DNA of 5,431 bases from Deltaproteobacteria bacterium (GTDB lineage Bacteria; Desulfobacterota; Desulfarculia; Adiutricales; JAGVGV01), in the NCBI GenBank assembly GCA_015233515.1, contig JADFXS010000207.1, positions 1 through 5,431 of the forward strand, given 5' to 3'. Of this stretch, positions 1-5,431 are shown piece by piece. Each line of letters starts with the position of its first letter. Position 1 is the stretch's first letter. The notes under the pieces were generated by a model. It was not told where the DNA came from. It ran no database searches and saw only the letters and a list, made by a program, of their open reading frames with translations. The translations under genes and the position numbers were made by a program.

Positions 1-169
1 AGGCCTCTTCGCCGAAAATGACATCCCGAGCCAGCAGCTTCTTGGAAACCGCGTCCTTGGGATAGCCGACATAACTGGCCACGAAGGTCCTGACACCGTT
101 ATCGCAGGCAATGACACTGCGCGAGGTGCCCAAGTCAATCCCGACGTTTAGAATTTTGGTTTGGCTCAT
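1..169 (-). CDS. mamK: MamK-type magnetosome actin, N-terminal part (runs off the left edge)
   Basis: Only the first 56 codons are in the window. The protein begins MSQTKILNVGIDLGTSRS, and residues 10-18 (GIDLGTSRS) are the phosphate-1 loop of the actin/Hsp70 ATPase fold. The following VGYPKD (34-39), KKLLAR (43-48) and FGEEA (52-56) match, from memory, the start of Magnetospirillum MamK (GIDLGTSHT, VGYPKD, KLLGR, GDEA), which is more specific than a generic MreB or DnaK match. MamK forms cytoplasmic filaments that align and segregate the magnetosome chain. The ATG at 169-167 is preceded by a weak purine-rich stretch (AAGAAAGTG) and lies 38 bp after the stop of the coiled-coil gene, so the two are probably co-transcribed. 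The main alternative is the related actin-like Mad28 of Desulfobacterota and Nitrospirota; telling them apart needs the missing C-terminal part. Confidence 0.85.
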   Translation of the reverse strand, partial: MSQTKILNVGIDLGTSRSVIACDNGVRTFVASYVGYPKDAVSKKLLARDVIFGEEA

Positions 170-207
170 AAATTCACTTTCTTCGCTTGGTTATTGGCTG
201 GAATGTT

Positions 208-756
208 TTACGATTCACTCCGCAATGTTTTGTTTTCATCAAAAATAGCCTTAAGGAACGGCAGTTTGTCCTTGCTGACCGGGCCACGTCTTGTTTCCGA
301 TGCCTTGGCCCAGTCGGGCCTTGGTCTGCGTATTTCCAACTCAGCCAGTTTGGCCTCGATTTTTCTCAGTCTTTCTTCGGAAACCGCGGCTTCCAGCAGA
401 GCCAGCCGGGCTTCCATGGCTGGAATCGATTCGTTTTCCGCCGCGGCCTTTTTCCGTCCGAAGAGGCGGCCGGTCTGGCGGGAGATATATTTGAAAGGCG
501 TGGCTACGGCTCTGGTGACTGGAGTAGTGACTGTCGAGACACTGTTTTTAACTACGCCTCCCGTGCGCTTGATGGCGTTATATGAAGCCCACCCGGCAAA
601 CTCCATGGTGGCGCACGAATATTTGCCGGCCTCCTTTATGGCCGAACCGCTTCTCATGAGGAGGCTTGCAATGACCAGCCCGGAATATTGGGCCGCGGCG
701 ACGGAATATTGCCCGGCCTCATTGATGGAGTTAAGTCCAGTGTTTATTATCCTCAT
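208..756 (-). CDS. Repeat plus coiled-coil protein upstream of mamK, candidate magnetosome (Mad-like) protein
   Basis: I do not recognise this 182-residue protein as a named family. Residues 10-37 and 39-66 form an imperfect tandem repeat of about 28 residues (INEAGQYS... and IKEAGKYS..., 10 of 28 identical), rich in Ala, Gly, Ser and Tyr. Next come a Thr/Val-rich linker (67-95) and a basic patch (GRLFGRKK, 96-103). A predicted amphipathic coiled coil spans about 111-142, with hydrophobic positions M114, L118, L121, V125, L130, I133, L137 and L140. The tail is charged. There is no signal peptide or clear membrane span, so it is probably cytoplasmic or peripheral. The ATG at 756-754 has a good Shine-Dalgarno (GAGG, 9 nt upstream). 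The gene lies directly before mamK. Coiled-coil Mad proteins (for example Mad23, Mad25, Mad26) accompany MamK-like actins in Desulfobacterota, so a chain-connector or filament-partner role is plausible, but this is inferred from position and architecture only. Confidence 0.75.
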   Translation of the reverse strand: MRIINTGLNSINEAGQYSVAAAQYSGLVIASLLMRSGSAIKEAGKYSCATMEFAGWASYNAIKRTGGVVKNSVSTVTTPVTRAVATPFKYISRQTGRLFGRKKAAAENESIPAMEARLALLEAAVSEERLRKIEAKLAELEIRRPRPDWAKASETRRGPVSKDKLPFLKAIFDENKTLRSES

Positions 757-804
757 GAATATCTACCTCTAACTCGTCACCCTTGGGGGGATGCCCGTTT
801 GTCT

Positions 805-848
805 TTTATAATTCATTATTTTGAGCAGTTGACCGATCAGGTCGGTCA
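805..848 (-). promoter_or_regulatory. Possible promoter and 19-bp palindromic operator for the coiled-coil/mamK unit
   Basis: Positions 830-848 form a palindrome with 7-bp perfect arms, TGACCGA (830-836) and TCGGTCA (842-848), around the 5-bp centre TCAGG. Its size and form are like sites bound by dimeric repressors such as TetR-type regulators. On the minus strand a TATAAA hexamer (810-805) would be a -10 element, putting the start of transcription near 798, about 40 bp before the ATG at 756. The matching -35 window (833-828) has no good TTGACA, but it lies inside the palindrome. A bound protein would therefore cover the promoter. The palindrome is directly visible; the promoter and operator roles are inference. 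Confidence 0.35.
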
Positions 849-875
849 TACTTGCTATTCCGCGCTAATTCCTAA

Positions 876-899
876 GAAACAGCACCTTGGGGCTGTTTC
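876..899 (-). terminator. Stem-loop downstream of feoB, possible terminator
   Basis: A perfect 8-bp inverted repeat, GAAACAGC (876-883) and GCTGTTTC (892-899), encloses an 8-nt loop. Read on the minus strand the stem ends ...GCTGTTTC and is followed by TTAGG, so the U-tract is short and partly inside the stem. It lies about 195 bp after the feoB stop and before the putative promoter of the next unit, which fits a weak intrinsic terminator or a 3' end-protecting hairpin. Confidence 0.4.
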
Positions 900-936
900 A
901 GATGGCCATAGCTTGCCTTCAGATGGAGCGTAAGGT

Positions 937-1034
937 GTCATTTCAATGAGCAGCGCAAACTGCGAAAAGAAATCTCTAAAGTTAGGAGACCGTTCTTGAA
1001 AACAACGGAGATTTCTCCCTTCGGTCGAAATGAC
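937..1034. repeat. REP/MITE-like extragenic palindromic repeat
   Basis: The outer ends GTCATTTC (937-944) and GAAATGAC (1027-1034) are perfect inverted repeats. The inner blocks AGAAATCTC (968-976) and GAGATTTCT (1008-1016) are nearly so, with 8 of 9 complementary positions. A small central hairpin, CCGTT (990-994) with AACGG (1004-1008), adds to the fold. The right arm, read on the minus strand, is the common dispersed motif GTCATTTCGACCGAAGGGAG followed by AAATCTC, which I recognise as a repeat found in many copies in various bacterial genomes and often mistranslated as a VISTEGRNL-like peptide. It contains no gene. Such elements are often mobilised in trans by REP-associated or IS200-like transposases, and other copies are expected elsewhere in this genome. 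Confidence 0.65.
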
Positions 1035-1093
1035 TGCAAGCAAACGTTTCTCGGCGCCATAACTCTGCGATCCGTGGGGTCGGGTATTCAAGT

Positions 1094-3031
1094 TTACATC
1101 ACCCAGACCAAAACCCAATTCAAGGCGCTGCCCGTCATCAAGGCCGTCAGGCTAATGAAGGCAGACATGATCAGGGCGTCCCGGGGACCAACCTGTCTGA
1201 CCATGGCCATCAGGTTGGCCAGACATGGGAAAAAGGTAGTCGTGACAATGACCGCCACTATGCATTGCACATAATTCATCTCACCCTTGCGGACGAGGTT
1301 GATGATTACCGCCGCCGCTGCTTCACGTCTGGCGATACAAAGGATAACCGCGTCGACCATAGCCAGGGGCAGACCGAGCAAACCTTCGATGATGGGACTG
1401 AGCAAGTGTTTGCCCGCGGTCAACAGGCCGATTCGGTCAGCTATAAATAGCGCCAGGGCGGCATACAAAAAAACCAAAATGGATTCCCTTAAGAACCAGT
1501 ATAACCGATAAAAGGTTTTTTTGATAACCCATCTAGGACTAGGCAACCTGATTTGGGGCAACTCCAGGATGAAATCCAGGCGCTCTTCGCTCTTTCTGAG
1601 AACCTGGTTTAACAATAACCCGGCGCTGATTTCCATGAAAGCCAGAACACAAAACGCGATAAGGAAGGCAGTCCAGCCCATCCGCCCCAGGATGCTCATA
1701 TTCAAGCCTAACTGAGCGACGCAGGGAATAGCAAAAGCGATCAGATAAATGGTGATGTACCTTTCCCGACGGGAGGGTATGGTCTTGGTGGTCAGGGTAG
1801 CCATGGTTTTACAGCCGAAACCAAGCACTAGCGGCATGAGGGCGTTGCCGCCCAATCCGAATTTCATCAACAGGCGCCGGCTCAGGACGGAAAGGTTGGG
1901 CAAATAGCCCACATCCTCCAGAGTGTTGAAAAACAGGAAAAAGACGGTCAAGATCGGCAAAACCGTCAAAAGAGCGTTGGCCAAGCCCATGGAAAGCACT
2001 CCGTGTTCACCGATGAGCAAATCCTGCCAAAAACCGGCAGGCAGGATATGCCCCAGGAACGCCGAGGTGGGATTCCACAAAAACGAGTACATCCATTCTG
2101 AAATTCCATTGGCCACGTTGACCACCAGCTGGAACATGAGGTACAAGACCATCAGCAGTATGGGCAGTCCGAAAAAGGGATGCCGGGTTAACCGCGCAAA
2201 CCCTTCCAGGATTTCATTTTTCGATACTTGATGCTTGCGGATGACTTTTAATTCCAGATCGTCGAGCCATTGGTTACGTCGATTGTCCAGGGCGAGTTTG
2301 ATATTGCCTCGATACTGACGGTTGAGGACTTCAACCTCGCGCTTCAGCCCCGCCATGGTCACGGCGTCGACATGATCTTTCAAGTAGTCCCAAATTCGCT
2401 GATAATTTTGGACTAACAGCAAGGCTACCGCTCGACGGAAAGGATTTGTCGCCTCCAACTGTGCCTCTAACTTGCTCAAACTGTTTTCGATCCGGTTAAC
2501 CTTAAGGACCAGGGCCTGCTTGCCCGCCCGGGCCCTTTGGATCGCCGCCTCCAGCTTTTTGGTTCCCTGGCCATGGACGACCATGGACTCAACGACCGGG
2601 ACGTCCAGAATGTGAGCCAGGCGATCCGAATCTATCCGGATGCCTTTGCGGGCGGTTTCGTCGATGGCGTTCAAGGAAATTACCAGAGGCAACCCCAGGG
2701 TGAGAAGGTCCACGGTTAAAGCCAGGGACTGTTTGAGCCGGTTGGCGTCGATGCACTGGACAATAATATCCGGTTTTTCCGTGAAGATGGCCTTCAAAAC
2801 TAGAAAATCTTCTTCTGAATCCAAAGATAAACCATGAAATCCGGGGGTATCGATGATCTCATGAAGCGCGTCGCCGATCCTGGCGGTAGCCCTTTTCATT
2901 TCGATAGTGGTTAAAGGAGCGTTGGCCACCAAAGTATATTCGCCGGTCAGATTGACGAACATCTGACTTTTGCCGGTGTTAGGGCAGCCGACGATCATGA
3001 TCTTCTTTAAAGACGACGTGGTTGACATCAT
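1094..3031 (-). CDS. feoB: FeoB-family ferrous iron transporter, magnetosome-island copy
   Basis: This 645-residue protein has the FeoB layout: an N-terminal G domain (about 1-170), a helical linker (about 171-280) and a polytopic membrane domain (about 285-645). GTPase motifs are G1 GCPNTGKS (15-22), G2 Thr42 within NAPLTTIE, G3 DTPG (61-64), G4 NAID (121-124) and a G5-like SMVVHGQG (149-156). Membrane hallmarks are LEDVGY (371-376), the Gate motif GFGC (C407), PCVAQ (C437), the ARREAAAAV segment (567-575) and FFPC (C603). FeoB moves Fe(II) across the inner membrane. Departures from canonical FeoB include Leu for Gly after the switch-I Pro, DTPGFHGL where DLPGxYSL is usual, and GFGCKTMA where GFGCxVPA is usual. 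No FeoA or FeoC is seen. The start is ATG at 3031 or 3028; no Shine-Dalgarno precedes it, and a TATAAT box 12 bp upstream suggests a nearly leaderless mRNA. Island FeoB copies have been given Mad names (Mad17 or Mad30 as I recall), which I cannot assign here. Confidence 0.95.
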   Translation of the reverse strand: MMSTTSSLKKIMIVGCPNTGKSQMFVNLTGEYTLVANAPLTTIEMKRATARIGDALHEIIDTPGFHGLSLDSEEDFLVLKAIFTEKPDIIVQCIDANRLKQSLALTVDLLTLGLPLVISLNAIDETARKGIRIDSDRLAHILDVPVVESMVVHGQGTKKLEAAIQRARAGKQALVLKVNRIENSLSKLEAQLEATNPFRRAVALLLVQNYQRIWDYLKDHVDAVTMAGLKREVEVLNRQYRGNIKLALDNRRNQWLDDLELKVIRKHQVSKNEILEGFARLTRHPFFGLPILLMVLYLMFQLVVNVANGISEWMYSFLWNPTSAFLGHILPAGFWQDLLIGEHGVLSMGLANALLTVLPILTVFFLFFNTLEDVGYLPNLSVLSRRLLMKFGLGGNALMPLVLGFGCKTMATLTTKTIPSRRERYITIYLIAFAIPCVAQLGLNMSILGRMGWTAFLIAFCVLAFMEISAGLLLNQVLRKSEERLDFILELPQIRLPSPRWVIKKTFYRLYWFLRESILVFLYAALALFIADRIGLLTAGKHLLSPIIEGLLGLPLAMVDAVILCIARREAAAAVIINLVRKGEMNYVQCIVAVIVTTTFFPCLANLMAMVRQVGPRDALIMSAFISLTALMTGSALNWVLVWVM

Positions 3032-3051
3032 CGTGATTGTGCTATTATATA
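3022..3051. promoter_or_regulatory. Overlapping face-to-face promoters for feoB (-) and the ferredoxin gene (+)
   Basis: On the plus strand a perfect -35 box TTGACA (3022-3027) precedes TATATA (3046-3051, 18-bp spacing) or TATTAT (3043-3048, 15-bp spacing), which would start the ferredoxin transcript near 3058. On the minus strand a perfect -10 box TATAAT occupies 3049-3044 and would start feoB transcription near 3037, only about 6 nt before its ATG; I see no good -35 for it. The two -10 elements share the same bases and the plus -35 lies inside the feoB start region, so polymerase probably cannot use both at once. I do not see a classical Fur box. Confidence 0.5.
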
Positions 3052-3070
3052 AGCATAAATTAGTACGATT

Positions 3071-3102
3071 CCGAGGCGGCTTGGTTTGGATTGCCGCCTC
3101 GG
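3071..3102. promoter_or_regulatory. Perfect 10-bp-arm palindrome between feoB and the ferredoxin gene
   Basis: CCGAGGCGGC (3071-3080) and GCCGCCTCGG (3093-3102) are exact reverse complements around a 12-nt loop (3081-3092). In the ferredoxin mRNA this would be a very stable leader hairpin ending 21 nt before the ATG at 3124. As DNA it sits about 35-65 bp upstream of the inferred feoB start, where a regulator dimer could bind. No T-run follows on either strand, so a simple intrinsic terminator is unlikely. A terminator-like or RNA-processing role for leftward transcripts arriving from the upstream operon remains possible. Confidence 0.55.
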
Positions 3103-3123
3103 GGAAAGCTCGGCTGTGGACTT

Positions 3124-3531
3124 ATGGCCTACCAAATAGGCGACCAATGCGTAGGGTGTGGAACCTGCGCCAAGAAATGCCCGGAGCAGGCCATCACCGG
3201 CGAGCGCAAGGTTCGTTTTAACATCGACCCTTCTCTTTGCCAGGAGTGCGGGACCTGCTTTGATCTCTGTCCCAAAGGCGCGATCCTGGATCCTGAGGGT
3301 AACCGTCCCACCAAGGTGAAAGGCAAAAAGCAAAAGATAAAAAAGGCGCACATAAATACTGAACTTTGTGCCTTCTGCAAAAACTGTTTTATGAACTGTC
3401 CCCAGGAGGCCATCAGGACAGTCAAAAGAGGTCTGTTTAGCATCGGTTATTGTCAAGTGGACTCCAGCAAATGCATAGGTTGCGGAGCTTGCACCGAATT
3501 TTGCATCACCCACGCCGTCGAATTAAGATGA
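3124..3531 (+). CDS. Four-cluster [4Fe-4S] polyferredoxin
   Basis: This 135-residue soluble protein has four CxxCxxCxxxC motifs: C9/C12/C15/C19, C39/C42/C45/C49, C82/C85/C88/C92 and C117/C120/C123/C127. The first three end in Cys-Pro, the fourth in Cys-Ile. They form two 2[4Fe-4S] ferredoxin modules joined by a lysine-rich linker (about 61-75). One extra Cys (C110) lies outside the motifs. There is no signal peptide, so it is a cytoplasmic low-potential electron carrier. The ATG at 3124 puts the first motif right after the start; an in-frame TTG at 3091 would begin inside the leader hairpin and is unlikely. The ribosome site is weak (GTGGA close to the ATG). It is the only plus-strand gene here and diverges from feoB. 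That pairing suggests a link with iron redox state (inference). Its partner could be a reductase elsewhere in the island. Confidence 0.92.
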   Translation: MAYQIGDQCVGCGTCAKKCPEQAITGERKVRFNIDPSLCQECGTCFDLCPKGAILDPEGNRPTKVKGKKQKIKKAHINTELCAFCKNCFMNCPQEAIRTVKRGLFSIGYCQVDSSKCIGCGACTEFCITHAVELR

Positions 3532-3795
3532 TTCACGCTTATCCGCCACTACCTTGAAAAAATATCCGCAATTGGAGCAGAGCCTGATGGTTTCCTCGGC
3601 GGTGGCCATGTAAATACCGACCAAAAGCAAGGGTAATCCCACGGCCGCGCCCACCACAAACAGGCAACAAAGCGCGCCGACCACGATCAGTGTCGTCGCC
3701 CACCGAGCGGAAAATTTTTTATTTCGATGTATCGCCATGGCATGGTTACACTGGGGGCAGACCAAGGCCGGGGACTGGTTATTTATTTCGGTCAT
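3523..3795 (-). CDS. Small membrane protein with a split zinc-ribbon (CxxC...CxxC)
   Basis: This 90-residue protein carries CPQC (13-16) and CSNC (73-76), a pair of CxxC knuckles that could close one zinc (or iron) site. Between them is a hydrophobic stretch (about 33-65, containing C43 and C44) long enough for one long or two short membrane helices, which would form a hairpin bringing the two knuckles together in the cytoplasm. I do not recognise a named family. The ATG at 3795-3793 has GAGG 13 nt upstream; an in-frame TTG at 3807 lies almost on top of that GAGG and is a poorer start. The start overlaps the end of the preceding gene by 17 bp, implying translational coupling. The 3' end overlaps the oppositely oriented ferredoxin gene by 9 bp. 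Confidence 0.8.
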   Translation of the reverse strand: MTEINNQSPALVCPQCNHAMAIHRNKKFSARWATTLIVVGALCCLFVVGAAVGLPLLLVGIYMATAEETIRLCSNCGYFFKVVADKRESS

Positions 3796-4147
3796 GGTGT
3801 TGTTCAAACCTCGGCTTTAGAGATTTTTTCTGATACCGGCTCAAGCCCATGGATAATCCCAGGGCTCCGCCCACCACTCCGGCAACCTTGGTGATGGCCC
3901 CGGCGATGACCACTTCCGCCGCGCTGGCCGCAATGGCGATGGTGGCCACCCCGGCCAGTAAGCCCACTCCGCCGCCGATAAGAACCTTGCTGCCTATTTG
4001 CAAAACATCAGACAGTTCCACTTGTCTGGTTTCACTAACTAACGGATCGTTCAGTTCAAGCGCCATATCCCCCCCTGGGTTCGGTTGAGTCTTCTTGGCG
4101 CGAATGGCTTCCTTGGCCTTGTCGTAATCGATATGATCAGGGCTCAT
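3779..4147 (-). CDS. Gly-rich (glycine-zipper) small membrane protein, unknown function
   Basis: This 122-residue protein has a hydrophilic N-terminus (1-48, with charged DHIDYDKAKEAIRAKK at 4-19). It is followed by two closely spaced Gly/Ala/Val-rich hydrophobic helices (about 50-103) with GxxxG-like spacing (IGGGVGLLAG; VAGVVGGALGLSMG), and a basic, His-containing tail. Such helix pairs pack tightly and are common in small magnetosome-membrane proteins such as MamC, MamD and MamG, but I see no sequence match good enough to claim homology. The ATG at 4147-4145 has GGAG about 9 nt upstream and follows the previous gene's stop by only 3 bp, so they are in one operon. There is no signal peptide. 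Confidence 0.75.
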   Translation of the reverse strand: MSPDHIDYDKAKEAIRAKKTQPNPGGDMALELNDPLVSETRQVELSDVLQIGSKVLIGGGVGLLAGVATIAIAASAAEVVIAGAITKVAGVVGGALGLSMGLSRYQKKSLKPRFEQHHDRNK

Positions 4148-4150
4148 ATC

Positions 4151-4531
4151 CTATCTCCCTTTCAGATACAAAGGCGGTATCCAGCTTTTTTTAGGTGAAT
4201 CCTTTTTGCTTTGTTTCTGGGTGGTAATTTTTTTTCGGGCCGCGTTGTAAACGGCTCCGGCCACTCCGGCGCCCAGACCGATCTTGATGGCCACGGCCAG
4301 TTCCACCGCGCCCCACAGTCCCAAGGCTGGAGCGGCGGTAACGCCAGCCACGGTGGCCAGAACTCCGGCCCCGGCTCCGACCGCGATGGTGCGCCCTAAG
4401 GATTTGCCTGATTGGTCCGGACGACATTCGCCGCCCATGCTCTCCGACATATGCTTGGAATGTAAACGACAAAAATCAAGGCTGTAGCCCTTGAACTCAC
4501 AGGTGTCACAATGCGATTTAGCGTGTTTCAT
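4151..4531 (-). CDS. Small membrane protein with a Cys/His-rich N-terminal knuckle and Gly-rich helices
   Basis: This 126-residue protein starts with a compact metal-site-like segment: H3, H7, C8, C11, C21, H24, H27 and C36 (HCDTC...CRLHSKH...C). The spacing is not CxxCH, so it is not a c-type haem site; zinc or iron binding, or a redox thiol pair, is conceivable. Residues about 45-98 form two Gly/Ala-rich hydrophobic segments with many small residues, followed by a Lys-rich tail (KKSWIPPLYLKGR end). It shares its architecture (soluble head, Gly-zipper helix pair, basic tail) with the next gene, and the two may be distant paralogues. The ATG at 4531-4529 has a strong GGGAGAAGGG Shine-Dalgarno and follows the mamN stop by 24 bp. 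Function unknown; its position next to mamN suggests a magnetosome-membrane protein. Confidence 0.78.
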   Translation of the reverse strand: MKHAKSHCDTCEFKGYSLDFCRLHSKHMSESMGGECRPDQSGKSLGRTIAVGAGAGVLATVAGVTAAPALGLWGAVELAVAIKIGLGAGVAGAVYNAARKKITTQKQSKKDSPKKSWIPPLYLKGR

Positions 4532-4555
4532 TATCCCTTCTCCCTTTAAGCCGTT

Positions 4556-4900
4556 TTATCCATAGGTCCGGCATAGCCAAAGGATATATATAGACGAGAC
4601 TATAAGAAAAATAAACGTCACCGGCAAGCCGATCCGGGCAAATTGCTCCAAGGTAATGGCATTGCCTCCCGGTAATTTCAGACCTTGCCGCTGACCGGTA
4701 TTTTCCACCAGGCTGGCAGCCACCGGCCAGGCCGTGGCCCCGGTTAACGAAGCCGAGGACCCGGCCAGAACGCCCAGCGACAGGGCCCACCAGACGATAT
4801 AGTTTGGCATGGACAGACCAAAACCCATCACAATGGGCAGCATCAAGGACGTAGTCGGTCCGGCGTTGAGAAAACCCGTTATAATTGCCGTCGACCACAT
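4556..4900 (-). CDS. mamN: MamN-like transporter, C-terminal fragment after a frameshift
   Basis: This frame encodes the last quarter of a MamN-like protein: 114 residues from ATG 4900-4898 to the TAA at 4558-4556. The segment WWALSLGVLAGSSASLTGAT closely parallels the MamN region WWALALGIMAGS..ALSGAT that I recall from Magnetospirillum, and the end (IGLPVTFIFLIVSSIYILWL) matches its final membrane helix. The homologous frame stays open upstream of this ATG (GRPWLLCLVLMW), so the gene was continuous before the frame change. If made separately it would begin by reinitiation at TGATG, where the stop of the upstream fragment overlaps this start; no independent Shine-Dalgarno is obvious. On its own it has only about three membrane helices and is unlikely to transport. 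Confidence 0.8.
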   Translation of the reverse strand: MWSTAIITGFLNAGPTTSLMLPIVMGFGLSMPNYIVWWALSLGVLAGSSASLTGATAWPVAASLVENTGQRQGLKLPGGNAITLEQFARIGLPVTFIFLIVSSIYILWLCRTYG

Positions 4901-4945
4901 CAAAACAAGGCACAGAAGCCAAGGACGTCCCAGGGATAAATGTAG
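4898..4945 (-). other. Frameshift junction in mamN with a TGATG stop/start overlap
   Basis: Reading leftward, the MamN frame must change between SGLLTYI and RPWLLCLVLMW. Adding one base in the short runs CCC or GGG (positions 4929-4935 on the plus strand read ccCaGGG) would give YPLGRPWLLCLVLMW and restore one reading frame into the C-terminal part. The current frame ends in TGA, whose last base starts the ATG at 4900 (TGATG), a classical reinitiation arrangement. The TTTT run before the stop does not give a slip into the needed frame, so programmed frameshifting at that point is not supported. Confidence 0.7.
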
Positions 4946-5431
4946 GTCAACAGTCCGGAGGCCTCCAGGCTGCCCACGAAAATGGTCATGCCCACGAAAA
5001 ACAGGACATCGTTGAATGGAACTCGCTCCAAGATGGCCCGGCGTTCTAATCCGGAGAAAAAAAAGAGCGACAATCCGCCTGTCAACGGAATGACCGAGGG
5101 GTGGAGCGGAGTGAGCGGGGCGATAATCAACAAAAAGATGACGGCCGTCAGAATGTATAAGCCTCGTCTGATGGCCTTCCGATCCTGTATGGTCAATTCG
5201 GGCTTGTTGACCTGGACCGCGGTTACCGTCGGACGAAGCGCGATGTCCCTAGATCCCGAAGGTTTCAAAACCGCCATTTTTAGGTAAATCAATAATAACG
5301 CCAGGAGCACGAGACAAATGGGGGTCATGAAATAGATGAAAGGCATGAAGCCGATTCCGACTTCAGACGAAATGAGCATGTTGGGAAAGTCCCCGATCAT
5401 GGTGGAAGCCCCGCCCAGATTCGAGGCGATC
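4900..5431 (-). CDS. mamN: MamN-like transporter, central part (5' end outside window; stops early by frameshift)
   Basis: The frame is open from the right edge and encodes 176 residues. It begins IASNLGGASTMIGDFPNM, which closely matches the MamN signature ANLGGSSTMIGDFPNM of the ArsB/NhaD/CitM ion-transporter superfamily. A cytoplasmic loop (about residues 55-80) and further helices follow (LTAVIFLLIIAPL; PLTGGLSLFFFSG; DVLFFVGMTIFVGSL). MamN is a magnetosome-membrane protein proposed to move protons or sodium and so adjust luminal pH for magnetite growth. The frame ends at TGA 4902-4900 after YPWDVLGFCALF, which has no MamN counterpart, while the true continuation lies one frame away. This is either a real disruption or a one-base error. 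It leads the operon that continues with the small membrane proteins. Confidence 0.85.
   Translation of the reverse strand, partial: IASNLGGASTMIGDFPNMLISSEVGIGFMPFIYFMTPICLVLLALLLIYLKMAVLKPSGSRDIALRPTVTAVQVNKPELTIQDRKAIRRGLYILTAVIFLLIIAPLTPLHPSVIPLTGGLSLFFFSGLERRAILERVPFNDVLFFVGMTIFVGSLEASGLLTYIYPWDVLGFCALF

Follow-up and report, generated by a model that had tools for sequence, protein, structure and literature searches.

A magnetosome gene cluster fragment, most likely of the magnetite type, from an uncultured member of the Desulfobacterota

The contig JADFXS010000207.1 from the Deltaproteobacteria bacterium assembly GCA_015233515.1 raises the question of whether the iron-transport, ferredoxin and small genes lying between its mamN and mamK form an unusual magnetosome gene set or a familiar one. 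The window analysed here is the complete contig of 5,431 bp, both ends of which cut genes (mamN and mamK); it is densely coding (91%), and its FeoB and its 122- and 126-amino-acid proteins each have a single contig of this length as their recorded source. A sequence-only reading had described it as a fragment of a non-alphaproteobacterial magnetosome island in which MamK- and MamN-type proteins flank a FeoB, a polyferredoxin and four small proteins, and all of these components were found, by family matches and by conservation in relatives. Very probably the contig represents part of a magnetosome gene cluster of the magnetite type from an uncultured member of the Desulfobacterota, with the order mamN-mad7-mad8-(unnamed gene)-mad9-mad17/feoB-mad11-mamK and with mad9 on the opposite strand.

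This reading is supported by the families to which MamK, FeoB, Mad8 and the polyferredoxin belong, by the conserved gene order and by the kinship of the FeoB. The 5' end of mamK (positions 2 to 169, minus strand; 56 amino acids) is cut by the contig end and matches the NCBIfam MamK model NF040964 with an E-value of 7.7e-20 and 71 bits; the 400-bit cut-off is not reached because a fragment of this length cannot attain such a score. Over 52-56 amino acids the fragment is 64-83% identical to the MamK proteins of the syntenic loci described below and 71% identical to that of one Nitrospirota locus (L027), and it is too short for a MamK tree. It also matches an actin-like ATPase in the PDB (5jyg, E=2e-8), which we take to be the MamK of Magnetospirillum. 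The feoB gene (1094 to 3031, minus strand) encodes 645 amino acids that match TIGR00437 with E=5.4e-92 and 309.4 bits, just below the cut-off of 315.65, and that contain the FeoB_N, Gate and FeoB_C domains and the G1, G3 and G4 GTPase motifs of this ferrous iron transporter. The polyferredoxin (3124 to 3531) is the only gene on the plus strand, all others lying on the minus strand, and exhibits Pfam Fer4 matches in four stretches and four CxxCxxCxxxC motifs of the [4Fe-4S] type. Finally, the 122-amino-acid protein (3779 to 4147, minus strand), which has a hydrophobic glycine-rich stretch and was aligned with its homologues in 30 rows, is identified as Mad8 by homologues that bear the name 'magnetosome protein Mad8' (P0203, P0215 and P0217, at 51, 54 and 53% identity). 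These named homologues come from Candidatus Magnetomorum HK-1, Candidatus Magnetananas rongchengensis and a Desulfobacteraceae bacterium.

The gene set was also compared with related genomes. A FeoB scan of the genome collection yielded 79 loci, four of which contain the small proteins, the polyferredoxin, FeoB, the 182-amino-acid protein and MamK together (L001, titled Desulfobacterales; L003 and L006, titled Desulfobacteraceae; and L023, titled 'delta proteobacterium'). A profile search with the 122-amino-acid protein found it in six of eight chosen genomes and in six of the 395 taken from the phylum to which L003 belongs, one genome (G002) being in both sets. Once the surroundings had been fetched and their genes scored by profile, the module was present in ten loci, namely these four together with L104, L105, L106, L107, L109 and L110. 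This count excludes L108 (genome G091), which has a Mad8 match of E=1.8e-6 and otherwise just matches of the cation diffusion facilitator (CDF) type, the weak Mad8-like matches in L086 (strain BW-1, E=9.9e-4) and L030, and five profile-scored loci with no Mad8 (L008, L011, L019, L027 and L051). L080-L083 are repeats of other loci, the longer L110, L109 and L104-L108 took the place of the short loci L084, L085 and L087-L091, and L111 and L112 were used solely in scans of all loci.

In seven of the ten related loci the block is complete from mad8 through to mamK and includes feoB. More specifically, the 126-amino-acid gene adjoins mad8 in all nine loci in which this position is visible, the contig of L001 beginning at the 122-amino-acid gene so that neither this position nor mamN can be seen there. 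The 90-amino-acid gene comes next after mad8 in eight loci; the exceptions are L107, in whose genome it lies about 20 kb away, and L109, the magnetite cluster of Desulfamplus magnetovallimortis BW-1, in whose genome the protein was not found. The polyferredoxin is antiparallel to mad8 in nine loci, and feoB is divergent from the polyferredoxin in seven, five of which have a FeoA/DtxR-like gene after feoB. A gene for the 182-amino-acid protein is present in nine (adjoining mamK in eight, or otherwise the polyferredoxin), and mamK accordingly stands next to it in eight. Where they can be seen, the genes, their order and their strands in L001, L003, L006 and L104 are the same as in the window, and the FeoB proteins of the first three are 56-60% identical to that of the window; all four loci differ from it in having a gene at the mad30 position, and mamN is open in L003, L006 and L104. 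In the relatives, the flanks also contain a protease of the MamE type, a CDF transporter of the MamM or MamB kind and a gene similar to NapH, matching descriptions of Mad6, the labels mamM, mad6 and mamE resting on family matches below cut-off, with MamM and MamB scoring about alike. A further gene of the relatives is presumably mamL, a label given by position; the copy in L003 has no NCBIfam match. Because the four small open reading frames (ORFs) are conserved in these relatives, they are real genes and not chance ORFs.

The FeoB tree agrees with the synteny. It was built by a quick method with branch support from the Shimodaira-Hasegawa-like approximate likelihood ratio test (SH-aLRT) only, from the best FeoB of each locus after pieces shorter than 450 residues had been dropped, and contains 82 of 84 possible rows. 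The window falls in a clade of eight rows with an SH-aLRT value of 100, and the other members are exactly the FeoBs of the seven syntenic loci L001, L003, L006, L023, L104, L105 and L106. By identity the closest FeoB is that of L001 (60%), while its sister in the tree is that of L023, on a long branch. The next FeoBs outside the clade are those of BW-1 and of two bins labelled 'Deltaproteobacteria' (L002 and L019). Thus, the proposal of a non-alphaproteobacterial island fragment is borne out, in that FeoB tree and synteny both point to the Desulfobacterota and the MamN groups with moderate support with the MamNs of magnetosome clusters, in trees built without alphaproteobacterial rows.

Published clusters provide names for most of the small genes. 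In Desulfovibrio sp. FSS-1 the locus tags, as given in the available part of the source, run mamL 00120, mamM 00121, mad7 00122, mad8 00123, an unnamed gene 00124, mad9 00125, mad17 00126, mad30 00127, mad11 00128, mamK 00129 and mad10 00130 (PMC7951924). Compared by this tag order alone, which makes the names Mad7, Mad9 and Mad11 purely positional, the window shares mad7, mad8, one unnamed gene, mad9, mad17, mad11 and mamK with FSS-1. The 126-amino-acid gene is therefore probably mad7, the polyferredoxin probably mad9 and the 182-amino-acid gene probably mad11, while the 90-amino-acid gene would correspond to the unnamed 00124 and feoB to mad17. The two differ in that FSS-1 has mad30 and, in the part of PMC7951924 available, lists no mamN, whereas in the window mamN is broken and mad30 is absent. 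The accessible text of PMC9376291 gives FeoA and FeoB as homologues of Mad30 and Mad17, respectively, and a bacterial-type ferredoxin domain is described for Mad9 in that of PMC9840458, which fits the polyferredoxin as mad9. The magnetite cluster 1 of MMP XL-1 (PMC9145555, in the portion available) likewise shares mamN, mad7, mad8, mad9, mad17-1, mad11 and mamK-1 with the window; compared by locus numbers alone, it has room for five genes between mamM and mad17 and for a single one between mad17 and mamK, matching the expectation from the window.

The probable Mad7 (4151 to 4531, minus strand) exhibits, in an alignment of 26 rows, an invariant CxxC...GYS...CxxH N-terminus followed by a Gly/Ala-rich hydrophobic part, and a Mad name is attached to none of the 50 homologues listed for it. 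The probable Mad11 (208 to 756, minus strand) is named from its position between mad17/mad30 and mamK; a YS[VC]A..EY/QY-type motif occurs twice in it (residues 17 and 46), and its C-terminal part is charged. Of the four small proteins that had gone unrecognised, three can thus be given names, as Mad8 and the probable Mad7 and Mad11, and the 90-amino-acid protein still has none.

Given this conserved and published Desulfobacterota order, seen in ten loci, in FSS-1 and in XL-1, there is nothing unusual about the genes that lie between mamN and mamK; that impression arose from a contrast drawn against Magnetospirillum only. The contrast itself is partly sound, since feoAB1 of Magnetospirillum does lie outside the mamAB operon, but to place it elsewhere was an overstatement, as the island contains five magnetosome operons and feoAB1 is among them (PMC8547445, as far as its available text goes). 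In most lineages feoB is usually included in the magnetosome cluster, according to the available part of PMC7602337. Two features had escaped the earlier description altogether, namely the opposite strand of the polyferredoxin and the frameshift in mamN.

The 3' part of mamN (4556 to 5430, minus strand) is cut by the contig end and matches the NCBIfam MamN model in two frames, with E-values of 2.4e-31 and 1.1e-27. These partial pieces score 97 and 109 bits and do not reach the 500-bit cut-off, the frame not being intact; the longer piece scores 109 bits with MamN against 30 bits with ArsB. In the relatives' clusters four full-length MamNs score 321-360 bits and one cut copy 271 bits. The tree of 19 chosen rows, from which duplicates and the two weakest matches (L103 and L038) were omitted, places the window with the cluster MamNs of L003, L006, L104, L109 and L110 and one further fragment from ER2bin7 (support 87/87). 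Five of six paralogous transporters are separated by a branch with 100/100 support, and five Omnitrophota MamNs also stand apart; the sixth paralogue, L102, with a branch length of 5.88, falls near the cluster MamNs in an unsure placement. Since control genomes are matched by the MamN model too, it is the tree and the synteny that carry the assignment of this gene to mamN, and on these the identity is well supported.

The frame changes near 4930-4950, between 'GLLTYI' and 'LSLGRPW', where the window is about 19 nucleotides shorter than its relatives, a length read from the alignment to them. The gene is probably out of use here. Alternatively, the break may be an error of assembly or sequencing and the gene intact in the organism, which is possible although not the favoured explanation: the sequence comes from a single metagenome contig, and no second copy was found for the FeoB, 122- and 126-amino-acid proteins, yet the break is a gap of some 19 nucleotides and does not have the form of a single-base slip within a homopolymer. 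Among the relatives, mamN adjoins the 126-amino-acid gene in five of nine and is absent there in L023, L105, L106 and L107. When these four possibly incomplete genomes were searched in full, no mamN of the cluster type turned up; G005 gave no MamN match, G050 and G013 gave matches of 70-73 bits on other contigs, and G218 gave a piece of 62 amino acids.

The second deviation from the published order lies at the mad30 position, where the window has a non-coding gap of 337 nucleotides (757 to 1093) and five of the seven relatives with the feoB arrangement have the FeoA/DtxR-like gene. The profile of that gene matches 69 of the 79 FeoB loci and does not match the window, some of the other ten being cut contigs. 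A tblastn search of three relatives' proteins against the window for a mad30 relic gave a best E-value of 0.21, and a blastn search of the gap against the loci collected by then gave no match at E<=0.01, an exact 16-nucleotide piece of it occurring in 0 of 112 loci. The gap holds imperfect inverted repeats resembling short palindromic elements, of which no copy was found in the loci compared. A broken mamN, about 19 nucleotides shorter than in relatives, together with a vanished mad30 and a repeat-like stretch in its place might suggest that the cluster is decaying and the lineage on its way to losing magnetotaxis. This is unlikely, since the ORFs for FeoB, the polyferredoxin and the 126-, 122-, 90- and 182-amino-acid proteins are all open with their conserved residues kept. 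Moreover, four of nine relatives have no mamN next to mad7 and two of seven have no gene at the mad30 position, so that neither loss alone amounts to loss of the cluster, and no mamN is listed in the available part of PMC7951924 for FSS-1, which is cultivated and makes magnetite. The missing mad30 and the decay of mamN are local variations that are also found in some relatives.

Gene content also bears on the mineral. XL-1 lists mamN and mad7 to mad9 for its magnetite and not its greigite cluster in the available portion of PMC9145555, and the window is thus most likely magnetite-type. A greigite-type cluster is very improbable for the same reason, even though mad17-2 and mamK-2 lie near each other on the greigite-side contig of XL-1 in that source.

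Several points weigh against the interpretation as a Desulfobacterota magnetosome cluster. The MamN tree has long branches, including that of the window, which is not starred, and 10 of 14 control genomes likewise give sub-cut-off matches to the MamN family model. Phylum labels are not clean, the FeoBs of L002 and L019 being filed under Myxococcota by the tree tool. The window's own flanks beyond the contig ends are unread, so that the mamM side is not visible, and magnetosome formation by this organism is at most a prediction from its genes. That the locus is an ordinary feoB neighbourhood beside an ArsB/NhaD-type transporter and an MreB-like protein, as the control matches and the sub-cut-off scores of the MamN pieces and MamK fragment (both genes being cut) might allow, is nonetheless hardly credible, being contradicted by the synteny, the Mad8-named homologues, the magnetosome-cluster order and the best-matching families, which are MamK and MamN.

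The 90-amino-acid protein without a known name (3523 to 3795, minus strand) has CxxC pairs at 13/16 and 73/76 (alignment numbering) that flank a single hydrophobic stretch, and its predicted structure, of middling confidence, consists of strands, a helix hairpin and strands. A zf-LITAF-like model matches four of five family members and is below cut-off in the window's protein, for which DUF5362, a family without an assigned function, is the one model to exceed its cut-off. A LITAF-like zinc ribbon split by a membrane hairpin is a plausible reading of this predicted fold, and the protein, for which no search aimed at named homologues was made, may be a magnetosome component that has so far gone undescribed. 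A wider proposal, that it is a conserved and undescribed Desulfobacterota magnetosome membrane protein with a hairpin-split zinc or iron ribbon, which with the divergent polyferredoxin-feoB pair would form an iron-handling module able to replace a lost mamN, is doubtful and offered only tentatively.

The divergent region between feoB and the polyferredoxin (3032 to 3123) contains a hairpin with a perfect stem of 10 bp at 3071-3102, found in none of the seven relatives compared, of which L001 and L106 have other strong hairpins there. A scan of 2950-3200 gave two terminator-like sites against 0.1 expected, one of them inside this hairpin, and no promoter-like sites against 0.3 expected; an Rfam scan gave no matches up to an E-value of 0.1.

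Gene arrangements in two relatives depart from the common order. BW-1 (L109) shares mamN, the 126-amino-acid gene, mad8, the antiparallel polyferredoxin, the 182-amino-acid gene and mamK with the window, and differs in having no feoB inside the block and, as noted above, no 90-amino-acid protein found in its genome. A second gene of the probable Mad11 family lies directly after feoB in BW-1 (L011, 11939-12457), separate from the copy beside mamK. In ER2bin7 (L110, 11491-14857) the block likewise has no feoB between the polyferredoxin and the 182-amino-acid gene, and feoB is found on another contig (L019) with a DtxR-like gene and a weak second 182-amino-acid-like gene. In the probable Mad11 proteins themselves a GKYxCATAEYxGxxSYS..KR-type motif occurs once or twice (window 211-756; L104, 13632-14255; L001, 4982-5584), its copies being about 29 residues apart in the window and about 70 in L104, and the lengths of the proteins vary because the number and spacing of these copies vary. 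Some homologues matching these clusters carry the NCBI labels Anaerolineae (P0235, P0265) and Burkholderiaceae (P0245), which are probably bin or label errors; the start of P0265 resembles the 126-amino-acid protein of L104 (genome G359).

From what is known of the families, FeoB (Mad17) would import ferrous iron, the Mad9 polyferredoxin would act as an electron carrier in the redox control of biomineralisation, and Mad7, Mad8 and the unnamed 90-amino-acid protein would be small magnetosome membrane proteins. MamN would serve as an ion transporter setting the pH of the lumen, and MamK would form the actin-like filament that positions the magnetosomes. Roles of this kind have been proposed for Mad17/Mad30 (iron), Mad9 (redox) and MamN (pH) in the available text of PMC9840458.

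The window is thus a new copy of an arrangement already published for the Desulfobacterota, and the general picture of the magnetosome island is unchanged by it. It adds one more uncultured lineage to the magnetosome clusters of this phylum, and in it, as in some of its relatives, the mad7-mad8-mad9 block persists despite a broken or missing mamN. This retention hints that mamN may be dispensable in part of the Desulfobacterota group, in contrast to Magnetospirillum.

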